64,000 bases of DNA from Penicillium oxalicum (lineage: Eukaryota > Ascomycota > Eurotiomycetes > Eurotiales > Aspergillaceae). Location: assembly GCF_001723175.1 (NCBI RefSeq), contig NC_064650.1:682001-746000 (forward strand), written 5' to 3'. A model generated the notes under the pieces. It was given only the letters and a program-made list of their open reading frames with translations. It was not told where the DNA came from and did no database searches. Every line of letters starts with the position of its first letter. Within the stretch, counting starts at the first letter, position 1. The position numbers were made by a program, and so were the translations under genes. Shown here one piece after another: positions 38,642 through 64,000 of this stretch.

Positions 38642-39590
38642 CTAGTAAAGTCCCCAGCCGTCAGTGCGAGGGTTGACCACAATTCGATAGGGAAACGGGT
38701 TTGAATCGCTTGTCGTGATGGGTGGGATATGGTCTTTGTCTCGGTTTACCACGGTCAAGATCTTCAGGGCGGCTTTTTGCAGCATGTTGCCCATTGCCTT
38801 GCGCACTTTGGCTCGTTCTGTAGGCGTCGAGTGTTAGAAGCAGTGCGTCGAGTCCAGGAGACTGACAGGGGAAGCCGTGGCTCTTTCCAAAGGGAGATAG
38901 ATGGGAGATCGAGATCTTCGATGCAATGTCCGAGACGCATCCTCGCGCGCCCAAACTTGCGTTGTAGACCCAACCCTGTCCATTCCGAAGAAAGTGTAAA
39001 AAAAGAAAAAAGATCAATGAAAGAAAACAAAATCACATACCAGATTCTGTGCGTGGAGTGGCAATCGTCACGTCTAAAGTCCACACCTCCCAACAGACCT
39101 CTTCTTCGCCCTTCCCAGCAAGACCACCAAACCATAACCCCGAGCGGCGCCTTTTCTTCTCATAGAATTCAACGGCGATCCGTCCGCGCACACCTCCACC
39201 GCCCCCACCTAACGCGCCGTCTTGATTCCCCGACGTCGGAGATAGATGCTGACGAACGAGCGCATTCACGCGCGACTCGATCAAAGTCTCCAGATCGGCA
39301 TCATTGATAGCGGGGAGGGTCAGGTCGAGGACATCAAAAGTGACGGGTCGGATGGAGGGAAAATAGCGGTGGAAAAAGATTAAATTTAGGACGCCTGCAC
39401 CGGTAGATGAGGTGTTAATAATATTTATGGATAGAGATGATACTCCAGTTATCATGGCGGTTGAAGCAATTTTGCAAAAATAGATCCGGATCCATTCATG
39501 ATCTTTCTCACCTTTCAGAACATCGCGCACTGTGGTCGTATCGGCGAAGATCTCCAGAAAGTATTCTGGAGGGGTCTTGCGGGGCTCCAT
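38642..39590 (-). CDS. atg101: Autophagy-related protein 101 (HORMA fold)
   Basis: Component of the Atg1/ULK autophagy-initiation complex that pairs with the Atg13 HORMA domain; cytosolic and at the phagophore assembly site. Exons 39590-39512, 39394-39041 and 38817-38642 give 202 residues. Family features are the early FFHRYFPSIRP and TFDVLDLTLP, an insertion with a Gly run, VEFYEKK, a WF-finger-like LWFGG, CWEVWTLDV, and the conserved C-terminus HIPPIT with NPFPYRI. The ATG at 39590 gives the usual short start. Frame continues upstream to 39734, but that extension is low-complexity Ser/Pro and is probably leader. Intron 2 is 223 nt. Confidence 0.93.
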
Positions 39591-40673
39591 CCCCGCCTGC
39601 AGATGGATCGGCTCAGCGCGCGGTGGGCCGGAGTGAAGGAAAGAGGAGGGAGGCGAGGTGGAAAGGACAGGTAGCAGATCAGAGCCGAGAAAGGAGGAAG
39701 AAATCACAAAGAGGTATTTACAGGAGCAAAGCACCTGCTTGTGATGGGTGGGCCCAATTTAACGGTCTCATGGGGTCAGGTTGTCCAGGTGCAAGAGGTT
39801 GAGAGAGAGAAAGAGATGCCAGGGTTGAACAGGATGATGGAATGATGCTGCGCTGGTCGGCGCGGTTGCTATCGGCCATCGGACAAGGCCGAGGGGACGC
39901 TTATCGGGTTATCATTGGCCGGCGATCGGCAGAGAATTCCTTGACTGACAATGGACGAAAAGTATGGAACGACAATAAAGCGAATGTTCCGATTGCGGAC
40001 AGAACCGTAGAACCACGAAGAGAGTATCCCGGATTCGCTGCTGTAATGTGCACTACTGTCATGTATACTGGTCGAGGAGGGTACCTTTGTCAGTAGAGGA
40101 GGCGGCAGCGCTGCGGCCACTCAGTCTTCAAGCATCCCAAAAGTATCTAGACTAGCTGCTTCATTGTAAGCTGAGGTCAAGTCACCAGTTGACCAGTTGG
40201 CGATCGTTTGCTTAGTGATTCCGCGGTATGGCCGCTCCGAATCCGGGAAGAGTCAATGATATGCAGGTTTACCCAAAGAACGGTGGAATTCGAGCGGACT
40301 TCAAATCGACTTCAAAGCTCAGATATGGCCAAGTGCGCTTGGAGTTTCCAGTGAGTGAAGCTGGGAAGACTTGCGTCTGTACTTTTTCTATACCCGGAAA
40401 GTATTTTGATGATAAAAGAAGAGAGAGTCTTATACTACTCTCTCCCCGCAAGGTACTCGGCATGGTCCCGTGACTCGTCACCTCTCAATGAACCAACAGC
40501 CGAGGCCGCTGAAAGTCTGGGGTTGCTTCCCGCCCGAGGTTGGCAGGTTGGCTTTCATCTCCAGATTCTCTTTTTTTCGCCCATCTCAACCTGCATACAA
40601 GGGCGCCGACCATGAACTTTGAGAATTGATTATTTTGACCCTTTTGAACAGTGAACCCTCACTACCCTCCAGT
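39591..40673. other. Divergent intergenic region of atg101 and pex3
   Basis: About 1.1 kb holding both promoters. A plus-strand frame of 81 codons (40228-40473) just upstream of pex3 has no recognisable family and is probably chance. Confidence 0.5.
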
Positions 40674-42696
40674 ATGATCGGTGCCGCAAGGCGCTGGTTC
40701 CGACGCAATCGCAAAGGTCTGGCCATCGGCGCGGGCGTGCTAGGAGCTGGCTATCTAGCTGGGCAGTATGTGCTCTCCAAGATTGTTGAGGCGCGAGAGC
40801 GCATGAGTAGTGATCGAATTGCTCGTGAAAAGTAAGTGGTCCTCACTTGCTGCCCAGCATCCCCCGCCTTTGCCGGCAGCGAAGGTCTCCCTCCATGTGG
40901 GCTTGTGAAAGGCCAGAAAACATCGGTATCAGCTAGCCCATCATCTGCAAAAGCTGACAAGACATTGGCCAGTCTACGCCGACGATTCGAACAGAATCAA
41001 ACAGATTGCACGTATACCGTTCTAGCCTTGCTACCCACGGCGACCGAAAACGTGATCGAGGCACTGCCCGTGGAGGAGCTTACCAAAGAGCTTCAGAAGA
41101 AGCGCGCCGAACGACTGGCACGGTTGAATGCCGGCGAAACAGCAGGCTCGGACATGACTTCAGTGGCAACTAGCGTTCACGAAGATGATCAAAGGAGCCT
41201 GGCAAGTCTTCAGAGCGAAGCATACCTCCACACAAGCCAACTCGGCGAATCTATGAACGCGGAGGGCAAGACCTCGCCAAAACGGAACAAGACCCAGCTG
41301 TGGAATGAGGTCAAGGTGACCTGTATGTTTTGACCCCGGTTTTTTTCAACGAACTCCAAGCTCTACGGTCTTGCTCTTGCTAATTTCTTGCAGCGATCAC
41401 CCGATCATTCACTCTCATCTATACTCTATCCCTGCTCACTATCTTCACTCGCATCCAGCTGAACCTTCTTGGCCGTCGGAATTACCTCTCCAGCGTCATT
41501 TCGCTTGCAAACCCGCCCACAGACTCGACAATCAGCCTGGAAGACCATGATGACGAGCTCACTCAAACGCTTGGCGACGACTTTGAGACCAACAGGCGAT
41601 ATCTAGCCTTTAGCTGGTGGCTTCTGCATCGTGGCTGGAAGGAGTTGGTCGCTCGAGTTCAACCAGCTGTAGAAGATGCTTTCGGACCCCTCAATCCCCG
41701 TGAAGATATCACACTCGCCAAATTGTCGGAATTGACCATGCAGATCCGACGAAAGGTGGAAGGAAACACCGAAGAGGAGCGACGGTGAGATTGAACTCCC
41801 CTCTTCCCTCTGGCCGACTATCAGATGTAAACGCCCGTCTGTTTGGTCATGCAGATTGGATCGGGCTGGACATAAGCTGGGGCTCGCTAACGATGGTCTG
41901 TTTATCATTTAGATCGAAGAAATGGCTTTCTTGTTTGCTCCCACCAACAGAAGAAGAAGAGCACGTGCTACGTGAATCGGGCGTCGAGGGAGTTGCCGAC
42001 CCTTCATCCTCCCAGACCGCCTCGAAGCTGCGCCACCTGCTCGACGAGACTGCCGACCTTGTCGACTCTCCATCATTCTCACTTGTCCTCACTCTGCTCA
42101 ACAACGAAGGGTTCTCGACTCTCATTGATTCCAAATGTGCCGTGGAAGCTTTCCAGACATCCGAATCTGCCGCGATGACCGTGCCCCAGTCCTATGACTC
42201 CATGGCTACAGTCGTACCCGCACCTTCTGAACGCAAGGCTAAGCTGGCCAACCTTCTCGCTGTAATGGCCCGACAGGCCCATGTCATCGGAAATGGCACG
42301 CATCCCCCCAATGAGTATCTGGTCGCAATGGACCAAAACGTCCGTGAATTGGAAGCTTTTTCTGCTGTCATCTACAGCTCCAACTTTGAACTTGAACTGT
42401 TGGGAGCCGCGAACAATGCCGCAGCCAGTGCCGACGAGACGACGGAATTTGAACCTGTCTCCTCATCTTTGGCTGATATCCTGGTTGAGAAGAGCACCGG
42501 TCATTCAACAGGCGAGAATGTCTCATCCGAAGAAACAATGCATGACAGCAAAGACGGACAGGGGTCTAGCAATGGGGATTCTATCACCCACCCAGCTGCT
42601 GAGCTGATTTCGGACTCTACCTTTGAAACGGCCTGGGGCAAGGCTGTTGATGACGGCAAGGATGCTTCGGAAACGGGGCATGTCGCCAATTATTGA
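40674..42696 (+). CDS. pex3: Peroxin 3 (peroxisome biogenesis)
   Basis: Peroxisomal membrane protein that recruits Pex19 with its membrane-protein cargo. Exons 40674-40831, 40973-41322, 41394-41784 and 41913-42696 give 560 residues. The N-terminus has a basic head (RRWFRRNRKG) followed by the membrane anchor LAIGAGVLGAGYLAGQYVL. Next comes the Pex3 hallmark NLRRRFEQNQTDCTYTVLALLP, split by intron 1 within the Asn codon. Further family blocks are NEVKVTSITRSFTLIY and YLAFSWWLLHRGW. The C-terminal part after about residue 470 is Ser/Glu-rich and less conserved. It is transcribed divergently from atg101. Confidence 0.95.
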
Positions 42697-43504
42697 GCCC
42701 TCACCCTCATATGACCATCTCCCCTGCTTCACGTGATCACGTTTAACTACTCTGGAATGCCGTAACGTCTAGACTAGATGCTCAAAACTCATCGTGTATA
42801 CGTGAATCCGACACCTAGTGGTAAATGGCATCTTTTCTGATCCCCTTGGCTTTTACAATTGGAATACCCGACGGAGCTTGTGAGAACCTCGCCAGCCGTC
42901 AGATTAAAGTATATTGCGATATAAGGTTAGCGATGCTCTGCGCCATCTCTACGGCCATGTAATTGTGCAGGCAGACATAAGGGTTGATAGTGTACTCTGT
43001 GATAATCAGTGTTTGGCGATTCTTTGCGACTTCAGCGTTACCTTACTAGCTTGAGCTATCGAAGCCTCCCACCTACTGCCAGTAATTGCCGAGGCGTCGC
43101 TGATTTCGTCTGAGGCATCCGACATGTTTCCACTAGCTTCGCTTACGATTTATCTGGAACACGGATCCAAGCCTAAACTGTTGCCTATGAGCAGGATAAT
43201 CAGGGCTTGAAGACGGGCTTTACGGATGCATTTTCCTATCTTGCTTTCTACCGTCGGTATCAGCGGCCATGTGATCAGGTGCATGTTCAGGCGTTGAATT
43301 GGGGCCTGAGGCTGACGCAGCATGTCTTTGAAGCTCTGGTGGGGCACAAGTCACATGCCGAGGATGCCGTCCAGCGGAATGACGCAGGTTGTGCGTCCGC
43401 CGGGACCGAGTGAGGCAAGTCTACATATTTCACGAATCATTTTCAGTGCTACCCTACAGCTCCACCGTCTAGAAACCCGGCATTTCAGACATTTCCCCAT
43501 AAAT
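42697..43504. other. Intergenic region between pex3 and fmp52
   Basis: 808 nt between tandem plus-strand genes: pex3 3' UTR and fmp52 promoter. No further gene recognised. Confidence 0.5.
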
Positions 43505-44282
43505 ATGACAACTGCCGCAGTGTTTGGCTCCACCGGAGCTGTGGGCTCTCAGATCCTCGCAACTCTGCTGGCCTCGGAGTCGTTCCCCTTTGTGAAGACG
43601 GTCTCGCGGAGGGTTCCCGACGTCCAGTCTCCCAAGCTGGAAGCCGTGCAGGAAAGTGATACTTCCAAATGGGGTGACATGATCAATACCCTGTCTCCCA
43701 AGCCGTCAGTGGTCTTCAATGCTGTTGGCACCACCCGGGTTGCGGCGGGTGGTATTCAGAATCAATGGAAGATCGACCACGACCTGTGCATCGAGAATGC
43801 GCGCGCGGCCAAAGCAGCGGGTGTGAAGACCTATGTCTTCATTTCTAGTGCTGGCACCCGCAGCTTTTTCTCCAGTCGTGTCCCGTACTCGCAGATGAAG
43901 ATCGGAGTCGAAGATGCTATTCAGGAATTGGGCTTCGAGCACGCGATCATCTTGAGACCGGGTATGATTTTGGGGAGAGACGTTCCCAAGGCTGCCTTCT
44001 TCGAGAGCATCGTGGGGAATATTAATAAGCTCGGGCAGGGTATTCAGGACCGACTCGGTAAGTCTCCCGTTGGTTTTTTTTCCCCCTTTTTGGACGGCAT
44101 ACTCCAGTGTCACAGAAGAGTGTTTCTGATAGCTCAATCGTGCAGGTCAAGATCAGACTGTCATTGGCAGAGCTGCGGTGGCAGCGGCCCGGCAGGCCGA
44201 GGAGGGCAAAGCCCCGTCGGCTTTTTGGATCCTTGAACAGGCTGACGTTGTCAGAATGGGTCGGGATGAGTGGCAGGAGTAA
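43505..44282 (+). CDS. fmp52: FMP52-like mitochondrial outer membrane protein
   Basis: Atypical short-chain-dehydrogenase-like NAD(P)-binding protein of the FMP52 family, located on the mitochondrial outer membrane in yeast; its reaction is unknown. Exons 43505-44057 and 44146-44282 give 229 residues. It shows the N-terminal dinucleotide fingerprint AVFGSTGAVGSQI, VFNAVGTTRVAAGG, KTYVFISSAGTRS with the family serines, PYSQMKIGVEDAI (a Tyr-x-x-x-Lys), RPGMILGRD, and a C-terminus with IGRAAVAAARQ. The ATG at 43505 gives the expected start at the nucleotide-binding strand. Frame remains open further upstream without conserved character. Confidence 0.93.
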
Positions 44283-44690: not shown

Positions 44691-47042
44691 TTAGTTCAGT
44701 TTGATATGGAAGACATATCGCAGACGAATCTGCGCCGGGTCGTAGACAATGTATTCTAGAGCCGGAAGCCGAGATGAAACGACCCACTGATCCATGTCCG
44801 ACTTCTGTGGTAATGGGACCTCGACTCCTGCCAGATCAGGTCGTACACAAGAGGCATCTACCCACTTGGAATGGGTCGCGCCGTGTGGTTGACGCCGGGA
44901 GGATATCAAAACGCCTGGACGCCCAGTGCTCACATGGGATGATTCATCCCGGCCAAGCTCGACTTCGCAAAGCAATATGAATACCTCATGGCCCGAACCC
45001 ATACGGCAATAGGCCACTGATTTTCCCGACATATCGGCGAAGAAGATGCCTGCAGATGGGCCTATCCTCAACCCATTCCGAAGAATACTCGCGAAGTTTT
45101 GCTCATGAGAGCCATGCCACAGAAGCCGACGATGGCTCATGGACTCGCTGGCAGCTGCTCTGCATTTAGTGAACCTTTCGACTTCACCACGGCGTTCCAC
45201 ATGGAAGATGTTCAAGACCTGCATAGTGCCCGCACAATCAGAAACAAATAATTTGAAATGGGTGGTCTAGCGGATGTAAGTCTCATTCTTACCTTCGATG
45301 TGACATGAGAGTGGCGGTAGCTCTGGTTGTAATATCTGACCAGAGTGCCGTATTCCTTGCTTTTTGTTGGCACTAGGTATAGTTAGCATTGCAAGCTGTG
45401 GCAAGGAGTTTGACTATTTTGAACTCACCCAGCTCCATTGATTCTAACCGCAAAAAGCGAAGTACATTACTTCCAAACGTTGAAACTTTTGACTGGGATG
45501 CCTTTGGACTAGTGCACGAAGGCATCGCGGCTTTGATAGCCCGGAAACTCATCATATCCTCAATCCTTTCCTTCGTTTTTCTGACCGAGCTCGAATCCAT
45601 AGAGATCGGAGAGATCTCATCCCCGAAGAGCTCAATGAAGCATTTCCGAAGCCCTGCAATATCGATCTGGGTAGATTCCATAACTTCGGTCGACTTGCGA
45701 GAGATATGAGATATCATGTCAGCCAGGTCAATCCCGGTTGCCATGGAGTGCTTTGCAGTCAGCTTGTCACCCATCAGCTGGTTCTGATAGCTCTCCATCA
45801 AAGTTGCCAGATTTAGCACAGTAGCGGCTTTTGCGACTTGAGCCAGAAAATTCGCTGAAGCATCCGAAAGCGTCTTCGAACCACTGTCTTCCTGAGTAGG
45901 GACGAAAATAAACTTTTTCTTTTGTACGGGTTCAAAACGAGATTTCCAATTCAGACCAGTCAACTTCTCAAAAATGGTCCAGAATTCCGAGATTGCAGAG
46001 GGTAATAGTCCATCACCCTTGCAAGAAACCGTCGTGCCAATCTTGGTGGGCTTTAGGTAGTTCTCGATTTTGTTGCGCGTCATCTTCGTTTCCCGAATCC
46101 ATGTGTTGTATTTGTTCGCCTTGACATCAACGGTCAACTGGACACGGATGATCCTCGCGATAATCGATTCAGTCTTCCCCGTATCATCCAGAGCTGACGA
46201 AGCCGACACCAGTGTAGCATCGTAGATGTTATCGTCTTCGTCTAGCCACACAAGGAGATTCTTTTTCCCTACACAGCTTGGTGAGATATTTGGCAGATCA
46301 TTTCATAGGATGATCAGTCTCATCTTTGGTTCAATGTATGACAAGTACCTTTGCTTGGGTGACTCGCATCGTCAATTAACCCACGAAGTTCTTCCCGATT
46401 AGCTCGCAATCGGTCTTTTGCAAACTTTGCCTGCCGTCCAGAAGCTTCATTCACATTCAAGCCATGCTTGCGTTTCCGAACGTTGGTGATGGTAACTTTG
46501 GAGTTTCCTGTACTCTGAACGGGGCGCTTTGAGCCCAGCGATTTGACCAGGAATCCTTTCGCATCTAGTGGCTTCATCCTCCCGACGGATTGCAGAAGCC
46601 AGTCCATCGTGACAACGCTGCAGTTGGGATTTGTTTGGGCCGCGAGAACTGTCAGGGAATGATGATTTTTCAGTCATATAGAAAATTTTCATTTGAATCT
46701 TTTTTCCATTACTGACTCTTCGCCGGTGTATGAGTACTCTGATAGCACTGGACAGTCGTGATCAAATGAGTACATTCACTGATCTTCATCTTCTCGAATT
46801 TGGCGCCACACGCCTCCACCATGGCCTGGATCTCATCTGAGAGTAAAAACTTTGTCAGCTCACACTTTTCGAGGAGCTTGTGTTCAGCGTTGGTACTTGG
46901 GCTCGGCCTTACTATGCTTGTAGTCGGGAATATGCCCGCTTGTGGCAATAACGACCCCCTCGAATTTGTTCTTCCTACCGGAAGAGTTTGATTTTGTGGG
47001 ATTCTTTGCAGAGTTGCTGACTGGAACATCTGCAGAGCCCAT
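44691..47042 (-). CDS. BRCT-PARP-like protein, copy A (H-F-E triad)
   Basis: ADP-ribosyltransferase-like nuclear protein, probably DNA-damage related by family. Exons 47042-46913, 46836-46717, 46648-46349, 46268-45429, 45372-45293 and 45218-44691 give 665 residues. Domains: BRCT at about 13-110 (FEGVVIATSGHIP, CGAKFEKMKI, VTMDWLLQSV); a WGR-like region at about 185-290, recognisable by VWLDEDDNIYDATL and FEKLTGLNWKSRF but without the WGRVG signature (it reads YNTWIRETK); helical regulatory region to about 460; catalytic ART domain 470-665. Triad positions are His525 (LLWHGS), Phe549 instead of Tyr (AGIFFADMSGKS) and Glu645 (LEYIVYDPAQ). The loop before AGIFFAD is about 9 residues shorter than in copy B. 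It may be catalytically weak, mono-ADP-ribosylating or inactive (inference). Confidence 0.92.
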
Positions 47043-48879
47043 GATGCTTGATGACGCGCGGTAACCCTCTCGATCAGGAAAAAGATATTTGTGGTTTTAG
47101 TAAGATTAGGTTAAGAACGATCCGGAATCGGATGAGCGGAGAAGTTGAAATATAGGTGGAAGCTGAATGTATGTAGAAGTTGAACCTGAACATGCCGGAC
47201 AAATTGAGGAGGTTTCCAATTTACGGGTTCAAATGGTACATGAAAATAAAGCTTAAGCTCAAGAATCACCGCGTCAAAGGGGAAGAAGGTCCCAGATCTT
47301 TCGGGCATTGTCATGATTTGAAACCTCCACCTGAAATAGCAAGTACTTGAAGGCGATGGAGCTCATATAATGTCTGTAGTGAGATGTGTGAAACTCTATC
47401 CAGCTATTCCTCTTGCGCTTCCTTCGAAGACTCGAGTATCTCTGGTCTTGTGAGCCTATAGGTCTCACTGGATCTATGGCCTGAGGCTTCTGAGCCTGAG
47501 TCATCCTATACAGAAATACAGCCACTAACGTTAAGCGGGCAGATCCTAAAAGATCAGATCATCCATCTTTGGTCACATACCTAATAGTCTGTTTCAATTC
47601 AATTTGAATCATTCTGATCCAGACCTAGGGATCGAAGGATCCAAGCTTGAATGCCTAAAACTTTGTCTTTGACTATTGGCACATGGTGCAATTTGATCAT
47701 TACGGAGACAATGGTATTTTTGACAATGCCTAATGGATGAAAATACAATCTTACAACTGGATCCATATGTCAATATATAAAGTGAAACTTGATATCATTT
47801 GAATGTGTAATATGTGAAATCCGAAGACTTGATCGCTTTGGAGTATCACAAAGAATGGAACGATGAGTAGACGTCAATCATGCCGGATATAAATCTTCAA
47901 CCTTGAGGATTTCAACCGTGGATATCTGACAGAGAGATGGATGGTGTCAATATACCTGCCGATGTAATATGGATAGCCCCTGACTAATAGCACTTTAATG
48001 CGACCTTTCAATGGCTGAGCACATAGGATGCCACCACACTTCACTTGTTCTACGGGGCCTAAGAAAAGCAATTTTACTCAATCCTCGCAAATTATGGGTA
48101 GATGCACCACCTACCTACTTAGTCACCCTCTTATATGGGCGATAATGAATATAGAGCCGTATTTGTGCTTTGAGGGTAATGATTATTGCCTGGATCATAC
48201 AAAAACAAGCAAAGAGGGTTGCGCATCTCTTTTCTTCGGACAGTATGGCACAATAATGAAATTACTTACTAGCGAGAACCCTGCAGTGACGCTATGATTC
48301 ATCCGCGATCCGCACGGTTCATCCTTTGGCCCGAGTGAGAGGGTGGTATGTCTGTCACTGTCAAATGGACGATCAGCTTGACTTTCGCTCTGAGAGACAG
48401 AACAATCGAGTTGTAGAGTTGTAGAAGATGACAGTCTTGAGGACAGTATTTTACGACCAGGGTGAGGTCTCGACTTTCTTTCCCGAGAGCCTGGTCAGTC
48501 AGATGCAGAAAACTCGATATCTGGGAAACGCTTGCTGCGCGGGCCCAACTGCCTGTACTTGCAATAACCTCACCTACGGTACTGTGGAAGAGCAGATTCA
48601 TTAATCGCCCAGCTTCTCAAACTAGGTAAGCCCAAGATGGAATCAGCAAACACTCTTCAGTCTTTCAATCATATCGCAGACTAGCATGGCTTTCAAATGT
48701 CTATTTTAATTCTGACATTACGTATGTGTTGAATGAGGGTGGGGAAGGAAGCAGAAGCTATATACTTGACTGGAAATGTATGTGTCATTCGTATTTGACT
48801 TATAATATTGTAAGCCCATAAAAAGTCCTCCCCGCTCTAGTTTCCGTGCAGTGACCACTATCGCCAGACGATGTCCACT
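47043..48879. other. Spacer between the tandem PARP-like genes, 1.8 kb
   Basis: AT-richer than the flanking genes. It holds the promoter of copy A and the 3' end of copy B. Frames at 47274-47525 (-) and 48299-48601 (-) have no recognisable domain. I saw no clear third PARP fragment by eye. Confidence 0.5.
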
Positions 48880-51216
48880 CTATCTGGAGACTTTAAAGAC
48901 TAAATGAAATAGGTACCGTTGTCGAACCTGGGCGGGGTCATAGACCACGTACTCGTTGTACGCCAGGGTTGGAGCATTGTGATTCATGACTCTCCCCTTT
49001 GATGTGTCTGGCATTAAAATGCCATTCAAGCTTTGTCGAACCACTCTAGCATCCATCCAGGCTTTATGACCCACACGCCCTTGGGCGAAGACGCCGACTT
49101 TGTGCTCAGCACGCATCACAGCAGATGCCTTTTGATTGCAGTTCACCAGGCAGAGGGGATCTTTTCCAACTTCAACCTCGCAAAGGAGCAATAAACCCTG
49201 GCTGAAAGAGCTGGCAGAATACTGGGCAGATTTGCCGGACATGTCAGCAAAATATATACCCCCGCCAAACATACCCTTGTTTGATTTCTCAAAGATTCCA
49301 GTTCGAAGCCCCTGACTGAGAATGCCAATGAACTTTTCACTTGTCGAGCCATGCCAGAGCAAAAGCCGTTGACTGAGCTTGTCACGATTCTTTGTTCTCC
49401 ATACATTGTATCTTTGTTCTTCACCGCGGCGTGAAATGCGGAAGATGTCCACTGAATTCTAAAAGTAAAAGTTAGAACTTCTCCCATGATGAAAGAGTCG
49501 CACACTTTCCATAAGGCGAGAAAGCTCACCTCATAGTCTGTCGGGTGATGAGCACCTATGGAATTTTTCAGATACTGCAGGAGGTGAGTGTATTCGCGAG
49601 TGGTCTTGTTCACTAGATTGTAAAAGTCAACCTTTTTGACCGCAAAGGCTCAGTATGGGTACACACCACGTTTGATCTCTTCAAACTCAAGTGTACGGAA
49701 TGCCTTGAGCGCAATCTCTTTGGGTAAATGCCCATCTCTTTGTTTCTGCTCTACACAAAGTCGAAGCTTTAGTAGCAGCTCAATGTTCCGAAGCTCTTGC
49801 CGGGCCCATTCAAGATTAGTCGCTTCCGGCGTTGAGACCGAACGCCTGGCGATCCGAAGGAGACCGAAATACATCTCCTTCATGAATCTCGCCTTCTGCA
49901 TGTGCAGCCTCTCAGACGACCGGCTTTGAGCTTCTGAACATGCTAAGGGCTTCTCCAGGCAATTCACCAACTTAGTCAGGAGATCGACGGCAATGCGTAG
50001 AGTCAAACCGTCAAGGTTGAGGCTATAACATGACCTGATCTCATTCTTGAGAATGTGCCGGTAGAAAGATGAAGCATGGTCTCCAGGTCCGGGCCCAAAT
50101 AGGAGCTTGATCAGCTCAGACACCTCGCGTGGCAAACGTTCAATCACGTCGTCTTGCTCGGGCAAGGAATTTCCGGCCCTGTACTCGTCCTCATGCTTTG
50201 GCTGGAAAAAGATGTACCGCTCCGTACTAGGGTTCCATTCCAGAGTGTCTTGGGAAAGCATGCAGTGATCCTTCCAGGATTCGCCAGTGACCTCCTCGAA
50301 ACGATGTTCAAAGTCCCGCCTCGCGATCTCCAAATCATCATTGTCAGAGAGCTCACTCATTTCGACTTGATTGACCACTTCACGGTACCAGATACGGTAC
50401 GTTCGGAATTCGAAATTGTAAAGCAGCTGGATGCGATAGGTAGACACTTGGTGATTGGGAAAGTTGATGTCGGGATTCAGGGTAAGTTTCCTCTTTAGCC
50501 CGCTGATCAAGAAGGCATCCCACCGAACGCCTTGCTCATCCATCCAAACAGCAACCGTAGCACCTGTGCAATTTATGATCTCCATCAGCCGTCACTCTCG
50601 TGTTAGAGGGGGGCGGGAATATTTGTACTTCTGACTCACCCTTTGCATTAAATCGGTCATCTACCAGGTCAATCAACCTTTCATGGTAGATTTGAAGGTT
50701 TGTTCTGGGAACTACGGGAAGCTGAGGAGTGTCTGAGCGATTCTCTGAAAACACGCTTGTGTTTTCTGCCGCCACAAGCAGATAGTCGACTGCGTTCAGA
50801 GGCCGGTTTTCTAGCACCGACTCTACTAGCCAATCGACGCTGACGATTTGGCAGTTGGGAAGGGTTCGAGCGACACGGACTTGAAAAATTGGCGCATCAG
50901 TATAAGCTTTTTTGATATAATGTGAGAAAGAGGAAGCTAACATTACCTTTGAGAGAGCTGCCGCCTGGTTCCTCGACGTATCTATGCGAGGTAATCATGT
51001 GCGTGCAGATAGCGATGTCACGCTCTTCAAACGCCGCACCACATGTCACAATCAAGCGCTTGATTTCGTCTGTCATTTAGTTAATGGCGTTCAGTTGAAG
51101 TTAGTAGTGGTCTTTCATTAGAAAATCAGGGCTCACAAACCGTGTGTGATTCCGGGGATATTCCCGCCGACCATGACAACCACCCCAGCGAAGGCGCAGG
51201 CGCTAACAGCCATCAT
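48880..51216 (-). CDS. BRCT-PARP-like protein, copy B (H-Y-E triad)
   Basis: Poly(ADP-ribose) polymerase-like protein with a complete catalytic triad. Exons 51216-51141, 51069-50947, 50879-50640, 50563-49667, 49612-49530 and 49458-48880 give 665 residues. The N-terminus enters the BRCT domain almost at once (FAGVVVMVGGNIP, CGAAFEERDI, VSVDWLVESV). A WGR-like region follows (VAVWMDEQGVRWDAFL, FEEVTGESWKDH), but the signature is YRIWYREV rather than WGRVG. The helical regulatory region contains LPREVSELIKLLFG and LNLDGLTLRIAVDLL. The catalytic domain shows His509 (LLLWHGS), Tyr542 (GGGIYFADMSGKS) and Glu642 (YNEYVVYDPAQV). Intron positions and phases match copy A, so the two arose by tandem duplication. 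The start could be the ATG at 51216 or the adjacent one at 51213. Confidence 0.93.
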
Positions 51217-52933: not shown

Positions 52934-54816
52934 TCACTCGCTAACCAGGCCCTTAACAAGCACACGGAGACTGTAGTTTCCCTCGTCGGGATAAGGTGTG
53001 CCAAAGTCGCGAGCGAATTCGATATTCTTCTTGGTGGTCTCGAACAGTTCCAGCTCAAATCGACGAATTAAAGTCGCGATCGTGAGATAGATCTCAGCAT
53101 AGGCCAGGCTGTGAGGATTTTCAAGGTCAGAGGGAGGCAGTTCTCAGCTAAATGATCAGGGTCGTGAGGATACGCACTTCATTCCAAGACAAATACGGCT
53201 TCCTTTGGAGAAGTTGACGAGGTACCGGTCCAACCGTTCACCCTTTGCGGCAGCCCGTGTCCATCTCTCCGGATCAAATGCCTCTGGGTCGGGGAAAATG
53301 GATGGGTCCATAAGCACGAAATAATTGGTCTGGCTGACCAAATGCTATTTAAAGAGTCACCAGAATGTGTCAGCACATGCCAATATTGGGAGAGAAGTAT
53401 ATGATCATGAGTTTGCAGAGTAGCAAATCAATCAGGTTCGCTTACACCGGGAGGAATGGTGTAATCCTTGTACACTAAAGATTCCGAGGGCGCAACACGC
53501 GGCGATCGGGATGCGATTCCTGTGGAGAGCCGGAGAGTTTCCAGAACGACTCCCGCCTACAAATTGTGAAATGAGATGGTCAGTTGGGGTAAGCCTTTTA
53601 CCTTGGGAGAGATTTGCAACCGCTCCTCAATAGGTATCACCCACCAGGTATGGCAACTGCTCCAGCTGATTCCAAGTCGGCTTCGTCGTCGGTGTCGGCA
53701 TGACAGCCCGCAATTCCTCGCGCAACTTCTGAACGTGGCGGGGCTCGCTCAGAAGATAAAACATTCCCACCGAGAGCGATCGGGCCGTGGTCTCGGTGCC
53801 TCCAATCACCAATGCAAAGCCCTCGTCGGACAGGTTACGCGCGCTCTTGAAGTGATCGGGCAGGCCGGGGCTGGTCAGTTTCTCCATCACAGATCCGGAC
53901 TGGCCCGTAGATTGGCCGTTCTGAATGTTGACCACTTGTTCGTGAATGAATTGTTTCTGGTCCATCAAGGCAAAGGCATAGGGACTGAGTTTCTCAACCA
54001 GGAAGCGAGGCATACTGTTCATCGTCGGCTGGAGCCAGGGGATGAAGCGTGCCAGGTGACCCAATCTGAAGAGCCCGTTCACTCCATCTCGGATGTGCTC
54101 GTTGAAATCCTCCTGATCAAGATTGCCCGTATGAATGCCAAAGACGTATTCGTGGATGATGTCCGAAGTCAATGCGGCGAAGCCCGCGTCCAAGGTCAGC
54201 ACTTTGTGAGTCTTTTGGGCCTGTTCCACGTGGGCCACCAGCTTGTCGAGATATTTCTGGAGATTTTGTTCCATGCGCGTGATAGCGCCCTTGGAAAAGA
54301 ACTTCTCGACTGGGGATCGACGCATACGATGGACTTCGGGGCTAATGCTTGAGAATGAAGAGCCTGCAATATCAAATTGGGCCACTGTCGCGGCATCCTT
54401 CTCGCGTCTCCGTCCACTGGAAGCATAAATGGTATCATAGTATTCAGAATCCTTGATGTGCACCTCCCGGGGGCCGACACGGATAATGGGACCTATTTAC
54501 ATGGTTATTCTTGGAGATCAATTTTGGTGGCCACAGCCTTTCTTTCTTTATTTTTTGTTTTGTTTTTTTTTTGTGAGTTCAGTAGGGAAAAAAAGAGGGA
54601 AGACCAATACGAACCATAGATTTCGTGCAACTTCTCCAGGTGCCAGATAAAAGTTCCTTGCTTGATGATTTCATAGTAGAACTGATAGGCTGTGGTCATC
54701 GCAGCCAGTTTTGGTCCGGGGATCTTTCTGAGCGGATGGAAGTAGAGTCGGTACACTGAGATAGCCAAGCGGTAGGCTAGAAGCCCCCCGACCACCCACA
54801 CCAACAAACTCGCCAT
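52934..54816 (-). CDS. Cytochrome P450 monooxygenase
   Basis: Microsomal heme-thiolate monooxygenase, of the type related to trichodiene-oxygenase-like fungal P450s. Exons 54816-54615, 54492-53645, 53556-53446, 53344-53178 and 53108-52934 give 500 residues. An N-terminal membrane helix (LLVWVVGGLLAYRLAI) is followed by the hinge FHPLRKIPGPKLAA. The oxygen-binding I-helix motif is GGTETTA, the K-helix ExxR is Glu356-Thr-Leu-Arg359, the PERF-like segment is FDPERW, and the heme loop is FSKGSRICLGM with Cys439. A start at 54816 fits the helix; frame continues upstream without conserved character. Clustering with an FAD oxidase and two dehydrogenases suggests a tailoring role in secondary metabolism (inference). 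Substrate unknown. Confidence 0.95.
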
Positions 54817-54902
54817 GATGCCGAGGCGAATATCAGGAAGAGAGGGGTTGATTGGTACAATACAGAGCAATCTCTGGATTTCTTCGGCGTGGGCATGGAC
54901 TC

Positions 54903-54912
54903 TTTATTTAAA
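54903..54912 (-). promoter_or_regulatory. Putative TATA-like element of the P450 gene
   Basis: Minus-strand TTTAAATAAA about 90 nt upstream of the start codon. Position and composition fit a core promoter. Confidence 0.35.
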
Positions 54913-55547
54913 GTGTGCATGCCTCTCTCGCTAAGAGTGCCCGTGTCTAAGAATTAGCACATTCACACATGCTCATCCGCAAGGGGAGCGAGTCCGCCTC
55001 CCCATCAGTGGATCACATACAGACTCTCTTCTTGCGCAGCATTAGCTGATTGGTAGCATCTTCACCTTTTGGCGCCTTTAGCGTGGAGGAAATCCCCGTG
55101 GTGGTGGGGTTTCTTTTCTTTTCTTTTTCCTCGACTTTATTTATACCGGCTCCGGCTATAATCTTCAGCTGGGCCACGTTTGACAGTGCCACCAACCCCC
55201 GCTGCCAAGATACAGTGGAACCTGGTGGATGAAGGTGAGGATCTACAGCGACAGCCACTGATCCGACAATTGGCTCGACCAGGGGAACCCACAGGGACGG
55301 GATGTTGCATCTCCACTGCAGTGAAGCATCCAACGGACCAGGCTGGTTGAGGACAGACGGTCTTCGCACCCAATCTAGCCAGTGGCGCCCGCTATTGGCC
55401 CGTTTTTGAACGAGGAGATTAGGCGGACGACACTGTCCATTCGGCGCAGGTGACATAAGCGCATCTGATTGGACAGCCCACCTCGGCCCCAAGTCTCGAC
55501 TAATTCATGAGATAAGCATGTCCTTACTTTTAGTTAGGACCTCATGA

Positions 55548-55613
55548 CTCATGTATGTTGTGCATTGCCATGATGCACATCTCATGTATGTTGTGCATTG
55601 CCATGATGCACAT
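55548..55613 (+). repeat. 33-nt direct tandem repeat with internal hairpin
   Basis: Two identical 33-nt units (55548-55580 and 55581-55613) followed by a partial third. Each unit contains an inverted repeat, TGTGCAT and ATGCACA, separated by a 7-nt loop, so the array could form consecutive hairpins in RNA or single-stranded DNA. Confidence 0.85.
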
Positions 55614-55860
55614 CTCATGCATTTGATGTACTATATATGTAACCATGCAATTCCCAACCCGTTTGACTGGCGATGTTTCTGTCTGTCTGCCTGTCTGCCC
55701 AAGCGAAAGACACTGCTGGACGATTGGGCCGTCGCCACGTTACAGCGCCGGCGATCATCATGCATGTCACTAACAACTCGCCTACGTGATGACGATGTGC
55801 GGTTCTCCCCCCGTTCGTAGTGCAAATAGCTCATGCGCTACTTGGTTTTCCTTTCTTCTC

Positions 55861-55890
55861 CTTTCTTTCTTTCTTTCTTTCTTTTTTTTT
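55861..55890 (+). repeat. CTTT microsatellite
   Basis: Five full CTTT units followed by CTTTTTTTTT. Confidence 0.9.
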
Positions 55891-57037
55891 GCTTCCATAA
55901 AAATTCTGCATCTCAAAACTACTTCAGTCTGGTCTAAGGCATGCGAGTCGACCGTGGAGGCATGTCGGACAGTGGACCGCAAGAAGCCCCTCAGAGGCAT
56001 AGTCATTCCTTGTGAGAATCAATTTCCAAAATAGAAAAAGCTATACTTTTCACAAGAGGTAGGATATCATACTTCACACTTCTGTTTGTACTCTCTTTGG
56101 TCATTTTCAGAATAGGCTCATACAGTACGTAGGAATAAATGTGACTAATCATCGACACGACTCATGTGTTCGAGCGACCACCAAGCGAGCTGCCCCACCT
56201 TCACCCAAAACGGTCGCTCGCAGCGTCGAATCTCGATGCACATGCAAATTTGACAAGGGTGTTTCCACCTTCATGCATCTAGTCCCTCTCAAGCATAAAA
56301 AAATCCCAATCAAGGTCAAGATGCGTTCTTTTTTCTTTCCTCTGTAGCAATATTTGAAATGATCCTGCATTTATCTTGCCTGCAGCCACGGAATCCTTCC
56401 AAGCGGCGGCGATGGTACCCCACAGGTGGTGCTGTAAGAGGTTGAGTCCAAGAATTCATCAACCACCATTTTCATTCCAAGCCTCTCGCTTTCCAGTCGA
56501 TTCTTTTCTTTCATGCCGTTTTACCAAGGCGGTTGAATATATTTATCCCACTGTATGACTACAATAACCTAGGTGCGATTCTATTTTGTGGGCATACCAA
56601 ATTTTACACCGTATCCTGAAGTTCACAAGTGTTAACTAGCCTGTCTTGGCAAAAGGTTCACGCACGGAGGCTCATTAAGGCACCCCCCGAGGGAGCCGCC
56701 ATAATTTTCGAGGCGTGGCCGAATAGAGGTCGACTCTTCTTTTAAAAAATCTACAATCAGTACAAGGCTTGCTTGAGTAGCTGCTGACGTAGTCAATTCT
56801 GCAGGTATCGGAATGCTGTCCACGGGTAAACATGGTCTTTGCCCCCGGTTTTGCTTGGCTCTCAAAGCGTAACGTCAAGGGCTCTGAAGACATGATTTGG
56901 ACATGTGAAGGAATCTCCAATCAGATAAGGCTTTGTAGCCTCACTGAAATAGTGGCTCTACCTGGTTTCGGATTGCACACTAAGGCTTCCAGGATTCGAT
57001 CATCTAGTCAACTCTCATCGTCGTTTGGTCTGAGGAC

Positions 57038-58735
57038 CTAGGTCCATTTCTTGAGATCAGATGGGACGGCATGGTACCCATCAAAGAAGCCATGTGGATC
57101 ATAAGCATTCTTCAACTTGGTCAAACGCGCATGACGCCAGGACTGATACCCATAAAGAGCCGACAGTGGTTCATCGTCGTGCGCATAGTTCTGATAGACA
57201 TGGAGTTTGTCATACCCTGAGGTAGCCGCGAATTGGTCTCGCCATGAGCGAAGAAAATCGTCGACAGGCTTTGCAACACTATCATCCGTGTACGATCCGA
57301 TGACTTCGATGATGTTGTGAAAGTACTTGCGGTGTGGGAAGGCGGAATACGTGTCGGGCAGCGCCTCGATACCCTGCACCGGGAATGTCTCGATCATCAT
57401 GGCGGATCCGTTGGCTGCGGGATACTTTTGCAGGAATTTTTCGAACTCGTTGCCGAATTTGACCCATGTTGGTGGATCGAGTGTTCTGGCGTATAGGTTG
57501 TAGCGTGGGCCGGATGCGCAGGAATAAGGGATGAGGCCGAGAACGGACTTGGTGGGCAGCTCCTCCCATTTGAGCATGTGCTCCTGGAGGCTGAGACTGT
57601 AAGGCGAGAAGAGCTTGGTGTATTTTTGTCCTTCTGCCTCAGGGCCAGAGTAGACGATGTTGACAACCATGTTGAGCTAAGTGCAATAGTAAGCAATGTG
57701 CCATGAGAAATGGAGTAAAGCACGTCGGCGACTTCGTGGCTTACCTCGGGCGTCGTGGCATTTGATGAAAAGAAGATAATAAGAGCCAGCTTATTATCCA
57801 ACCCCGGGGCTGTCAGGTGGTTGGCAACCTTCATGACTTTCTCAATTGAACTCTTGGCAAATATCATATCTGCACTATAATGAACGCCTCCATGAGTCGC
57901 AGGCCAGGTCTGGTACGTGGACTCGAAAATGATGCCATAGTTTTGACCAGAACCCCTGATGCCCCAGAACAAATCCTGATTTTGTTGGTCGGAGGCTTCG
58001 ACAATGGTGCCATTCCACAGCGCCAGGCGCACTTTGCGGAGGGCGTCACTGGTCAGGCCATGCAGACCTTGCAGGCGACCTAGGCCTCCCCCGAGCATGG
58101 CACCCGTGGCGCCGATGCAGGGGCATGAGCCCACGGCTGTGCGAGATTGTAAGCAATGATTATTGAAATAGCGCAAGAGTGCAGTAACCATACTCAACTC
58201 TCTTCCGGCAGCGCCCACGGTATTGATCAAGTCGCTGAAATAGGCGCCAGTGCCAACAACGACTGTGCCGTCGGGCTGGACCTGAACATGGTTGAAGTTT
58301 TCCAGGTTGATTAAGACCGCATCTTGGATGGACTGGAGAGTCGGTGAATATCCATGACCTCCCGACCTGGCCAGCCATTGAAGGTTGTTGGTGGACATGT
58401 ATTGGAGCTAGTAGATCACACTGGTTAATTATCAAGCACTCCTGGGGAACCGATCAAAGCTAACTCACACCCAAGGAGAGATCATGTTCGTTTGCTGGAA
58501 GAAACACCTCGTCAAACGTCGGCGCCCTGTATGTCGACCATCGCTCTGTCTTAGTCGCAAAGTCGGGCCAGGATTTACCGTGAATCAAATCACTCAATGT
58601 CAAAGGCCACACTGAGGTGTTAGATGGAGGGGTACCCCGAGAATCAAGGTGCTCAAGGAGCAACGGCGTGCCTGTCGCAGTCTGGAAGACAGCTAGAAGC
58701 GCCGAGAAGGCCTGCAGACTTGCGAAAAATACCAT
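57038..58735 (-). CDS. Secreted FAD-linked oxidase (berberine-bridge type)
   Basis: BBE-like flavoprotein oxidase of the FAD-binding PCMH family, which oxidises alcohols, amines or sugars with O2. Exons 58735-58469, 58407-58194, 58136-57745 and 57676-57038 give 503 residues. The first 22 residues form a secretion signal (MVFFASLQAFSALLAVF), and several N-glycosylation sequons follow (NTSV, NGT, NAT, NGS). Both residues for bicovalent FAD attachment are visible: His107 in ARSGGHGYS and Cys165 in VGSCPCIGATG, followed by the GGGLGRLQG loop. The BBE C-terminal segment is present (HVYQNYAHDDEPL, RLTKLKNAYDPHGFF). It lies between the P450 and the SDR genes. Secretory-pathway BBE enzymes are common in fungal secondary metabolism. 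Substrate unknown. Confidence 0.95.
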
Positions 58736-59413
58736 TTCCGTGGACTGGAACTAGATTCAAGATAGAATGGCGTACCCAGTTCTGACAAGTTCTGGGGGTT
58801 GTATGGATAAATCACCTGCAAATATAGGACAGTCTCCCCTTCTTATATGAAATTTGTCGGGCTGTGAGCAGCACTTTTGGCCAACTGAGGGTCTTCAAGA
58901 AAAAAAAAGCATTCATCTCGAGCCTCATCACGACGAGAATTCAGCCTGTGACTGCTGAGGCGGTTGCTCAGCTCAGCCGCAAGTGGAGCAAAGACCTCTA
59001 GCAAGTTACCATCTCTAAGAGGCCCCTGCATGAGAGAACCCAGACCTGCATATGGCACGTGGGAAGGGGGAAATTTGGAGAAGTCAGTTCAATTGGCTAG
59101 AAGATTGGTGTCCGCGAAAGCTTGTGTCGAGAGGGCGCGGTGACTCGGGTCCGGTGATGGTGGCGTGAACTCGGGTCTACAATGGGGGCTGAGAACTTGA
59201 TGAAAGCGTAAGGCATAGAGAGAGGAGAGGCTCAGATAATGAAATGAATTTCAAATTCCGTGAAACCGTCAGCACAAATTGGTTTGTCAAATAGAAAACT
59301 TAGACGAAGGCCATCCCATAATTGCCTCGAGCGCTTTAATAACACCGCAGTCGATCTTCAGGTTCCGCTCTCGGTTCTATCTTTATCTCAAACGGTGAGA
59401 AGAGAACAGCAAG
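58736..59413. other. Bidirectional promoter of the FAD oxidase and SDR genes
   Basis: 678 nt between divergent start codons. It could co-regulate both genes. No transcription factor site assigned. Confidence 0.5.
58843..58848 (-). promoter_or_regulatory. Putative TATA box of the FAD oxidase gene
   Basis: Minus-strand TATAAG (in CATATAAG) about 108 nt upstream of the start codon. Confidence 0.4.
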
Positions 59414-60349
59414 ATGAGATCTAGCAAAATGTCAGCATTATGCACCGGTAAAACAGTCGTCGTCACGGGAGCTGCTGGATGCCTGGGCCAGGCCGTCGCT
59501 GTTGCCTTTGCCGCAGCGGGAGCCGAGCGAATCGCAATGGTAGACAACTTCAATGCTTCGGATACTTTTGAAAAGATTTTAAAAGCCGCGCAAGACACTG
59601 GGAGACCAGCTCCAGAGCTGCTATCATTGCATCTCGAAATCGGTGATGCTACGAGTGTTGACACTGGGGTTGCTGAAATCCACTCGAGGTGGGGACATGT
59701 CGATATTCTTATCAACACAACAAGTCACATGCCTCCGTGTGGTCTACAGCGACCTGTTCTAGAAAACAGCGACATTAATGTGTGGTGGGAGACTTGGGAG
59801 GTCAGCGTCAAAGATGCGTTCATTGTCGCTCGTGCTTTGCTGCCGCTCCTGCTCAAGGGATCTGACAGGACGGTTGTCAATGTCCTTTCAGCCAGCCCTT
59901 CTTTACCCACATTTACATCGGGAGCGCAGGATTTGTCCGCTTTGGCCATGATGCGTCTCTCAGAAGGTTTGATGCTCGACTACAGGAAAATAGGGCTGTT
60001 GGCATACTCGCTGCAGTTGGGACACTTTGAGGCAGAAGCTTTGGGAGATTCAACGGATTTCAGTAAGTCACAATCATATTCGGAACAATGAGATCAAAAC
60101 TGACTGTCGCAAGTCACTTGGCTCAACGATTTACAAGAGCTTGCAAGTGAAGCCCTGGTTTTACTGGCAAGCGAACGACGCGAGTGGCTCGGCGGCGGAC
60201 ATATTTACTGCGGGAAGAGTATTTGCGATGCTATCTCTCGCAATGACAAAAATATGCACAATGAGTTGCTGAAACTAAGCACATCTGTCGATAAAATTCC
60301 GGTTGCCGCTGGAAGGAGAAGAGGGCGCGTGCCGAGGTCCAGCTATTAA
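59414..60349 (+). CDS. Atypical short-chain dehydrogenase lacking YxxxK
   Basis: Rossmann-fold short-chain dehydrogenase/reductase-like protein. Exons 59414-60062 and 60114-60349 give 294 residues; a start at the ATG of 59429 would be 5 residues shorter. The nucleotide-binding motif TGAAGCLG is intact and the central strand reads HVDILINTTSH. Past the catalytic-serine region (NVLSASPSLP), where Tyr-x-x-x-Lys is expected, the sequence reads DLSALAMMRLSEG with no Tyr or Lys. It may therefore be inactive, use other residues, or act as a binding/isomerising protein. The C-terminal extension after about residue 215 is unusual, ending in a basic stretch AAGRRRGRVPRSSY. It is divergent from the FAD oxidase. 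Confidence 0.85.
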
Positions 60350-62146
60350 TGATGTTTCGTGGAGGTGTACGGCCGATGTTTATGATGTCTGCGACGCCGT
60401 GTCATTTCTACACAATTTGGATCTTTGATGAATGCTTGCAAATTAGCAAAATTGAGTTGTTAAGTTAGAGCTCTGCGTATCTTGAGCTTACAAGAATCTT
60501 CGACTGAACACTCAACCGGCAGAAAACGTGTATTATTACATACTACGTAGTTTGTTTGGACCTATATGGTCTATTGGGCCAGGCTCCGTTGGACCGAACG
60601 GATTTGTATGGTGCTCCCAGGATTCTCGCTGAATTCATTTTATGCTGTCAAAGCACGAGTAGAATCTTTATTAACATATCTGCTCAGCAAAATGGATTGA
60701 GTTATCTGCGTCGAGAGGAGAAGAAAAAGAAGATACCCAATAACTACTGATTCTTCAGGGTCTTCGCGGAGACCCCCCACGTGAATCTGTTCAACGTCGA
60801 CTCCATTCAATTTCACTACCTTTTTAGCGATGACTCAGAGTGAGACATGAAAGTCAGGATACGCTCAAAATAGAGTTATTGAACATGGACGGCTTTTTTG
60901 AAAGAGAGAGCAGCGGAGAAGACTCACACAGCGTTAGACTGGAGGTCTGAGAGCCACCACGGACATGTGACATAAAAAAACCCCTTCCCCCTCTTCCGTT
61001 GTCGCTGATCGTCATGCGGAAAGGCTGTGCCTCCAATACGGCTTTGAAGATGGGTCTGGGTGGAGCAGCTTCAGAAAAAAAAAACAACAGCCTCATATAG
61101 TCACTGAATCGTTGTCTGTGACGAGGTTTTTTTTTCTTTCCCATTCCCCTATGATCACCACATATTACATCGGCAGATAGCGGCGAGAGTATTGCGACCA
61201 TCTTTTAGTCTAGCGCCGGTTGCCTACAAAATCTCTCGTGAGAATGGGGAGATGGGTGGCTAGTGGTTAAATATTCAGCTAAATTGGTCGTTTCCTGAAT
61301 CGAATCCGCTTTTGGCGAGCTGGGCCCAGCCGACCGGGTCGGGGCGAGTGACCCGCTCGATCCCCGACCACAGGCCCCAAACTGAGATCTCTTGGCCTTT
61401 CCCTGTATCTTCTCGCGTGTTATGGTTGGGTCCCTCGATCGATGTCTTGCCGAGGCGAGTTGGTAGATCACTGGATGCTAATTATTCATTTCCCTTTATT
61501 TCATTTTTGTTTCTTTCACTCATGTGTCAAGAAATCATTACTATCATTCTGCCTGGCCAACCATAGTCTGGTCTGGACTTTGGGAAAACTAAATCGCCGT
61601 AGCGTGGGATGGAAGGGTTGAGACTTACAGGGGCTTGAGGCCCAACAAGATCTGTCAAGATCATCACCGTTGCTTCTGCTAATTATCGGAACGAAATGCC
61701 ACGGGGCCCGAGTCGTGGCACCAAGATACGACGACGGGCTGGCGTGGAGGCTGATAATCTGCATGGATATGTGGTCGCATTGACTGCCCAAAAAGGCAAC
61801 CAATATCAGATTGGCCAGACGTGTGATAGTGGGGCCGGCGAGTGGATCTAGCCGAGCCAAAACACCAGCACAGGCGTTCATTGGCTCATGGCCCCACTGA
61901 TCGGGATCACCACGGTGCTTGTGGGCCAGCCTGGATATGGTGAGAAAGAGCCAGCGTGCACCGGTACGTACAAAAGAGAAACAAAGAGACCATCCCTTGA
62001 GAAAAAGAATTTTCCCTTCTGTCGTCCGATCGTCTCATCAAGAAATCACGTATATAAACCCTCATCGGCTCTCTCATTCGAAGACCACACTAATACCACA
62101 CACACACCACAATTCATTGGCAGGAGCACACGTCAGTCGATTCAAA
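60350..62146. other. Intergenic region between SDR genes, 1.8 kb
   Basis: It holds the 3' end of the atypical SDR gene and the promoter of the downstream SDR gene. A-rich/T-rich patches lie near 61073-61085 and 61125-61140. No frame shows a recognisable protein. Confidence 0.5.
62051..62058 (+). promoter_or_regulatory. TATA box of the downstream SDR gene
   Basis: Perfect TATATAAA about 96 nt upstream of the ATG at 62147. Confidence 0.6.
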
Positions 62147-63260: not shown

Positions 63261-64000
63261 AGCTTTCATTGTGTCAATTTTCTGAGATCAACGTAACATT
63301 CAGAGTCGCAGCTTCCACGACTTCATCACATCCCTCGATTTAGTCTAGCTTTGTTTTTCCGATTTTTAATACCATCTTGTTCAATAAACTCTAAGCACTT
63401 CTATTAGATTACCACAGTCTAGCTCAGATGAAACAAGAAAAATGTACCGGTCCTTGTCATGAGAGTGTCTGTAAGATTGCTGTGTGTTGTATGAGGCCCC
63501 CAGTGCCTCGCGGAGGGGACATCGCAACGCTCCTTCTCAAGAATATACCACTTTCCCAAGTTGGCGAGATCCGAGGCGCGTAAGACGCCTGCATCACCTG
63601 CATACCGTCCCCTACTGTAGATTGCCTGCTCTCGCACCCCACCATTCCTCACGCAATTAAGTTCGAAGATAGCGCACACCTAGCGGCACTGCCTCCGCAC
63701 CCCGCAGCTTTAGCCCGTTTCAGTCTAGGACTAGCAGGTCTACCTGAGGGCTGAAAGTCCGTGTAAAGTCGAGCGGGCAGTGGCACACACTGCAGTGTGC
63801 ACAGACTCTGACATGAGAGTTTGTTTGCGAGGGCTGTACCCACTCCGAACCCGGTGAGAGGCTGACAATGAAAGGGAACAGTTTGCCGACCACTGTGTCC
63901 TGTACATTACCTATTAGGCCCTCCGACCCCGGTGAAACTATACGATGCGCCCGATACCTTTGAACCAACCGCATGAGAGAAAGCGCGGTAGGCCCCGTGG
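63261..64000. other. Right-edge intergenic sequence
   Basis: It contains the 3' UTR of the SDR gene (AATAAA within CAATAAACTC near 63383). Beyond that, only short overlapping frames without recognisable features. Confidence 0.5.

Follow-up and report, generated by a model that had tools for sequence, protein, structure and literature searches.

A tandem pair of diverged PARP genes in Penicillium oxalicum and the derived Penicillium family to which they belong

The window analyzed here, a 64,000-nucleotide stretch of the genome of the industrial fungus Penicillium oxalicum (C1:682001-746000, on a contig of 5.87 Mb), carries two tandem genes for proteins of the poly(ADP-ribose) polymerase (PARP) type, here called A and B, and it raises the question of what role two such dissimilar enzymes might play. 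A preliminary description had taken them for sister copies, one of which keeps and one of which loses the catalytic triad, and which might form a catalytic/regulatory couple. The reading favored here, to which we give an even chance, is that A and B are derived clade-1E (PrpA-type) PARPs that act independently of DNA breaks, probably as mono- or short-chain ADP-ribosyltransferases, in a manner resembling that of vault PARP4. They form a derived branch within an already known type of enzyme and do not constitute a new kind, and their novelty is real but modest.

Gene structure and descent of the pair

Gene A (44691..47042, minus strand), modelled with GT-AG introns, consists of six exons (47042-46913, 46836-46717, 46648-46349, 46268-45429, 45372-45293 and 45218-44691) and its product is 100% identical over 665 residues to the public P. 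oxalicum protein POX_a00246. Gene B (48880..51216, minus strand; PDE_09749 of strain 114-2), modelled in the same manner, also has six exons (51216(51213)-51141, 51069-50947, 50879-50640, 50563-49667, 49612-49530 and 49458-48880), and encodes 665 residues if translation starts at the in-frame ATG at 51216, or 664 if it starts at the next one, at 51213. Both frames are open and the intron phases are 1,1,1,1,0 in both splice models, so that the position of the two genes on one strand, their 1.8-kb spacing and their matching six-exon structures are as previously described. The equal length of 665 residues, accurate for A and for one of the two starts of B, looks like coincidence, the closest four relatives in the tree presented below having 627, 628, 677 and 694 residues. 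The 1.8-kb intergenic stretch (47043..48879) holds no further PARP remnant by tblastn, nor did any of 135 tblastn matches obtained in the window with 23 PARP queries (E up to 0.01) fall outside A and B.

A whole-genome profile search (searches of the species' own genome covered 30.77 Mb in 17 contigs) located PF00644 in three places, i.e., A, B and C8:1315710-1316282. The third belongs to a canonical BRCT-WGR-PRD-ART PARP of 715 residues in which W-G-R, H-Y-E and GYMFGKG are intact, and which likewise comprises six exons with phases 1,1,1,1,0. Introns 1, 2 and 4 of this gene occupy the same alignment columns as those of A and B, intron 5 lies within one column, and intron 3 within four, in a poorly aligned linker. 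The shared introns, previously taken as a mark of the pair, are therefore ancestral and nothing special to A and B; they argue against retroposition and, being held in common with the canonical gene, they indicate an origin of A and B by DNA duplication of a gene of that type. The wide divergence noted earlier is evident from the identities, which are 28% between A and B, 26% between A and the canonical protein, and 29% between B and the canonical protein. Repeat-induced mutation was considered as its cause and rejected, as the dinucleotide indices are 0.5/1.42 for A and 0.6/1.33 for B compared to 0.58/1.3 for the window. Elsewhere in the genome, a broken PARP piece (C2:378980-379189) covers a BRCT-to-WGR stretch with in-frame stops; a single tblastn alignment, which extends through introns, gives ~49% identity with the canonical protein. 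The whole-genome ART search returned no ART on C2, and this piece is probably one more duplicate of the canonical PARP, now decayed.

Full-length searches with the A and B proteins, in which candidates were pre-selected by short word matches within the first 500 residues, found three proteins in all. A region search with residues 440-665 of B (ART) gave 200 matches among 805 candidates; the 120 listed include most of the family, and 21 of them were fetched, in addition to P0001 and P0002. Among the matches listed, each of 12 other named Penicillium species is represented by a single derived relative, a figure obtained by searches too insensitive to show a second copy reliably, and among the matches examined the derived group is so far restricted to Penicillium. 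The matches listed for the B region lack the A-type P. ucsense protein, and none of them bears the name of an Aspergillus PARP, so that little weight can be put on a protein's absence there.

The tree comprises 23 rows, i.e., 19 fetched proteins, P0003 and three P. oxalicum models; P0021 and P0028 were not used, nor were P0001 (a different model of B) and P0002 (identical to A), and P0011, a 372-residue fragment, was counted as truncated. Fourteen Penicillium proteins, including A and B, form a separate clade (100/100) apart from the canonical PARPs, within which A groups with the P. ucsense protein (100/100) and B with the proteins of P. canariense, P. brasilianum and P. rolfsii (100/100). 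As A and B each group with proteins of other species, both lineages are, in the gene tree, older than P. oxalicum. The strict claim that A and B are sister copies is rejected by the very phylogeny that had been proposed for judging it, forcing them together costing 178.7 log units (approximately unbiased test, p-AU 8e-8), and a grouping of A, B and the genome's canonical PARP is rejected as well (p-AU 0.003). A forced topology with the A-clade as sister to the B-clade survives (p 0.19), and on this gene tree the two lineages may possibly have arisen by one tandem duplication. With animal proteins as the outgroup, the derived clade is placed next to the canonical gene of P. oxalicum, with support of only 54/11; its members are on long branches, which may have attracted one another. 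The branch of B measures 0.94 compared to 0.30-0.41 in its three orthologues, i.e., two to three times longer, so that B seems sped up in a species that also carries A.

The strain 114-2 protein PDE_09749 (P0001) matches the B model up to residue 472, including introns 1-4, and is modelled differently beyond this point; outside the differently modelled stretch there are five amino-acid differences. In the region corresponding to 49143-49458 of the window, PDE_09749 uses a different reading frame for the start of the last exon and omits the H and Y motifs. This is probably a gene-model error, by which database users would be led to think B devoid of an active site. A broken B gene in strain 114-2 was considered and set aside: its deviating residues correspond to the window DNA read in an alternative frame, which makes an annotation choice likelier, and a frameshift in that strain the less likely cause.

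Signature residues and the distribution of constraint

Pfam assigns ART (PF00644, curated cut-off 26.7) with 112 bits in A and 135 bits in B, as expected of members of the PARP/ARTD superfamily, and BRCT with 31.2 bits in A, while the BRCT score of B (18.1) is below the curated cut-off of 21.3. It reports neither WGR nor PARP_reg in either protein, and NCBIfam returned no match for four family members. The WGR and helical domains of the family are seen by profile-profile alignment with canonical PARPs (617 columns, probability 100) and are visible in the predicted fold of A and of the P. brasilianum orthologue of B. Of the domain order BRCT-WGR-helical-ART proposed at the outset, BRCT and ART are thus found by Pfam (sub-cut-off for the BRCT of B), and the two middle domains, missed by Pfam, are cryptic in both proteins. 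The description of A and B as tandem, widely diverged, intact-looking paralogs of the BRCT-WGR-PRD-ART type is supported.

The catalytic His and Glu are kept in all 14 derived proteins, and the Tyr position is occupied by Y in 12 and by F in two, namely A and the P. italicum protein. The triad therefore reads H-Y-E in B and in the A-type P. ucsense protein, and H-F-E in A, whose shortened D-loop reflects a deletion common to A and its P. ucsense relative. Loss of the triad in one copy was accordingly an overstatement, A having exchanged Tyr for Phe and shortened its D-loop, with His and Glu retained; loss of the catalytic Glu or His, as expected of a pseudoenzyme, is seen neither in A and B nor in the other 12 aligned family members. 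In PARP1, the Tyr is reported to stack on nicotinamide, with the His contacting the adenine ribose and the Glu polarising nicotinamide adenine dinucleotide (PMC8150716), and Phe in A thus preserves a stacking ring. From these residues we infer that A is still active; with its short D-loop and Phe for Tyr it is probably weaker or mono-ADP-ribosylating, and not dead.

These residues also bear on the proposal that B is an enzyme and A its catalytically dead regulatory partner, the two being kept as a couple. The tandem arrangement would suit such a couple, as would the H-F-E of A with its shortened D-loop, but the proposal is very unlikely, given that A retains Glu and His, that its P. ucsense relative has H-Y-E, that the same Tyr-to-Phe exchange occurs in P. 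italicum, at another place in the tree, and that A and B are not sister copies. Only P. oxalicum was seen with both genes among the matches listed, a weak point against the couple in view of the insensitivity of the searches.

None of the 14 derived proteins keeps any of the three letters of the W-G-R signature at the aligned columns, and none has the PARP1 D-loop GYMFGKG. The loss of W-G-R, being common to the clade, gives separate support for its single origin. Constraint is also distributed differently. Mean column identities for BRCT, WGR, the helical domain and ART are 0.35, 0.48, 0.44 and 0.56, respectively, in five canonical ascomycete-type proteins (P0008 included), compared to 0.49, 0.41, 0.36 and 0.60 in the B-clade, 0.59, 0.45, 0.29 and 0.50 in the A-clade, 0.77, 0.59, 0.64 and 0.67 in the manginii/hetheringtonii group, and 0.60, 0.35, 0.32 and 0.56 in the canescens and italicum group; these groups leave out two of the 14 proteins, those of P. 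hispanicum and P. riverlandense. The least conserved part is the helical domain in the A, B and canescens/italicum groups and WGR in the manginii/hetheringtonii group. The loss in the helical domain relative to BRCT is significant in all four groups (p 7e-4 to 5e-5) by a column permutation that takes columns as independent. Judged from these alignments, constraint is inverted relative to canonical PARPs, with BRCT retained and the helical domain diverging. The data support a family that lacks W-G-R and the canonical D-loop, that keeps His, Glu and an aromatic residue at the Tyr position, and in which constraint appears to have moved from the WGR and helical domains to BRCT and ART.

The family also changes quickly. 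Identity is 45% between A and its P. ucsense relative and 44% between B and its P. brasilianum relative. By comparison, the canonical PARP of P. oxalicum shows 43-49% identity with those of two Ascosphaera species and of Hypoxylon, fungi from a different order and a different class than Penicillium, respectively. A published table assigns P. oxalicum, together with the ucsense strains 2HH and S1M29, to series Oxalica (section Lanata-Divaricata), and its columns suggest that the 2HH and S1M29 genomes were re-identified as P. hepuense (PMC10559472). At the sequence level, A-type identity within one series thus resembles that of the canonical PARP between ascomycete orders or classes, a comparison in which the yardstick is the canonical PARP of P. 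oxalicum and not of P. ucsense, and in which hidden paralogy could inflate the divergence of A and B.

Such divergence might simply reflect drift in duplicates that are decaying under relaxed selection and serve no retained function. The broken BRCT-WGR fragment on C2 would agree with this, and one derived protein per species among the matches listed would fit gene turnover. Decay is nevertheless improbable: A and B have open frames, the strain 114-2 B protein shows few differences, His and Glu are invariant across the 14 proteins, and BRCT and ART are conserved while other parts change. This sparing of BRCT and the catalytic residues is not as expected of plain decay.

It may also be asked whether A and B are PrpA duplicates that, while diverged in sequence, still do the old job of DNA-break-activated PARPs. 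Several observations speak for this or weigh against the favored reading. The domain string and introns are those of the canonical PARP, the invariant His and Glu are accompanied by the PARP1 acceptor-site residue K903 in 13 of the 14 proteins, and M890 is kept in B, its three orthologues and P. riverlandense, so that B may synthesize polymer. The predicted fold matches DNA-bound PARP1 across WGR, helical domain and ART, although the models are of middling confidence (predicted local distance difference test, pLDDT, 73.6 and 78.5) and their domain arrangement is unreliable (Foldseek template-modelling score 0.27); a WGR of this predicted fold could bind nucleic acid through other residues. The helical domain retains residual homology (PARP_reg in three of nine members scanned, best E 1.4e-6), and only the B-clade shows a significant loss in it relative to ART (p 0.017, compared to 0.11, 0.87 and 0.15 in the remaining groups). 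Furthermore, W-G-R was scored at the aligned columns of one alignment, in which five of the 14 rows are gapped. However, with W-G-R and the D-loop absent throughout the family, with the helical domain (or, in the manginii/hetheringtonii group, WGR) as its least conserved part, and with a canonical PARP in the same genome, continued break activation appears unlikely, and we infer that A and B act independently of breaks.

Proposed activity and genomic setting

Under the favored reading, an ancestral canonical BRCT-WGR-PRD-ART gene would have given rise by DNA duplication to the derived Penicillium family, the A and B lineages separating before P. oxalicum split from its relatives. Without a WGR surface for reading breaks or a conserved autoinhibitory helical domain, the enzymes would not be switched on by DNA ends; instead, BRCT would bring A and B to a protein or nucleic-acid partner, and ART would place mono- or short-chain ADP-ribose on the target so recruited, as vault PARP4 does. 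The canonical PARP on C8 would keep the DNA-repair job. By analogy with characterized PARPs, A is likely to be mono-ADP-ribosylating, and B, with K903 and M890 kept, may make a short polymer. Candidate erasers in the same genome are one PARG-type match and one macrodomain match; a search for HPF1 gave no match, and neither did its control search.

If this is true, a eukaryotic repair enzyme underwent duplication and, in a single genus of moulds, lost its DNA-break switch with the catalytic core intact. The family would then be a natural series, with 14 sequences so far, for asking why WGR and helical-domain control is needed.

Among the genes flanking the pair, Pfam scans of 39036-44108 and 53630-63282 of the window identified ATG101, PEX3 and an NAD(P)-binding protein, which we take to be FMP52-like, on one side. 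On the opposite side are a cytochrome P450, an FAD-linked oxidase and two short-chain dehydrogenases, which may represent a small metabolic cluster.

Comparison with known systems

Fungal PARPs are described as belonging to clades 1 and 6, most of those in clade 1 being BRCT-WGR-PRD-PARP proteins (PMC2964712), and no published description of this Penicillium family was found in the open-licence literature, subscription journals being mostly outside that coverage. A and B share the BRCT-WGR-helical-ART order, the five introns with their phases, and the catalytic His and Glu with the canonical clade-1E PARP (Aspergillus nidulans PrpA type; C8), but differ from it in being devoid of W-G-R and GYMFGKG and in belonging to groups with a weakly conserved helical domain.

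A more speculative reading is that of a conflict PARP, in which nuclear or cytoplasmic Penicillium ADP-ribosyltransferases freed from DNA-break control change fast under a mycovirus, a mobile element or a self/non-self adversary, in parallel to the rapidly evolving primate PARP4, PARP9, PARP13, PARP14 and PARP15. The speed and patchiness seen in the family's sequences fit this possibility, which we regard as improbable. Nearly one third of primate PARPs, PARP4 among them, are reported in the text cited to be under positive selection linked to viruses (PMC4038475), and the Penicillium family would then possibly be a fungal counterpart of fast-evolving mammalian PARPs tied to host-virus conflict, one amenable to gene deletion in an easily grown fungus.

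The extra PARPs of Fusarium oxysporum f. sp. lycopersici 4287 are comparable as additional, lineage-patchy ascomycete PARP-domain proteins beside a main PARP; as presented in the section cited, these lack BRCT, WGR and H-Y-E (PMC11569842), in contrast to the present family, which keeps BRCT and H-[Y/F]-E. PARP3 resembles A in keeping the catalytic Glu and missing the D-loop, and it is described as mono-ADP-ribosylating (PMC8150716); it has WGR without BRCT, whereas A has BRCT without W-G-R.

The closest likeness in the manner of working proposed here is that to vault PARP4 (BRCT-WGR-CAT), in which, according to the portion cited, W-G-R is replaced, WGR is probably without nucleic-acid binding, the helical domain is not fully inhibitory, and the enzyme mono-ADP-ribosylates despite its H-Y-E (PMC10711553). 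The domain string and the loss of the W-G-R residues are common to PARP4 and the two fungal proteins, and H-Y-E to PARP4 and B. Pfam detected neither VIT nor vWA in the two proteins (E up to 1), ART is the C-terminal end of both, and each has 665 residues in all; the account cited reports PARP4 homologues as absent from fungi (PMC4245714). A and B would accordingly work like PARP4 without being members of its family.
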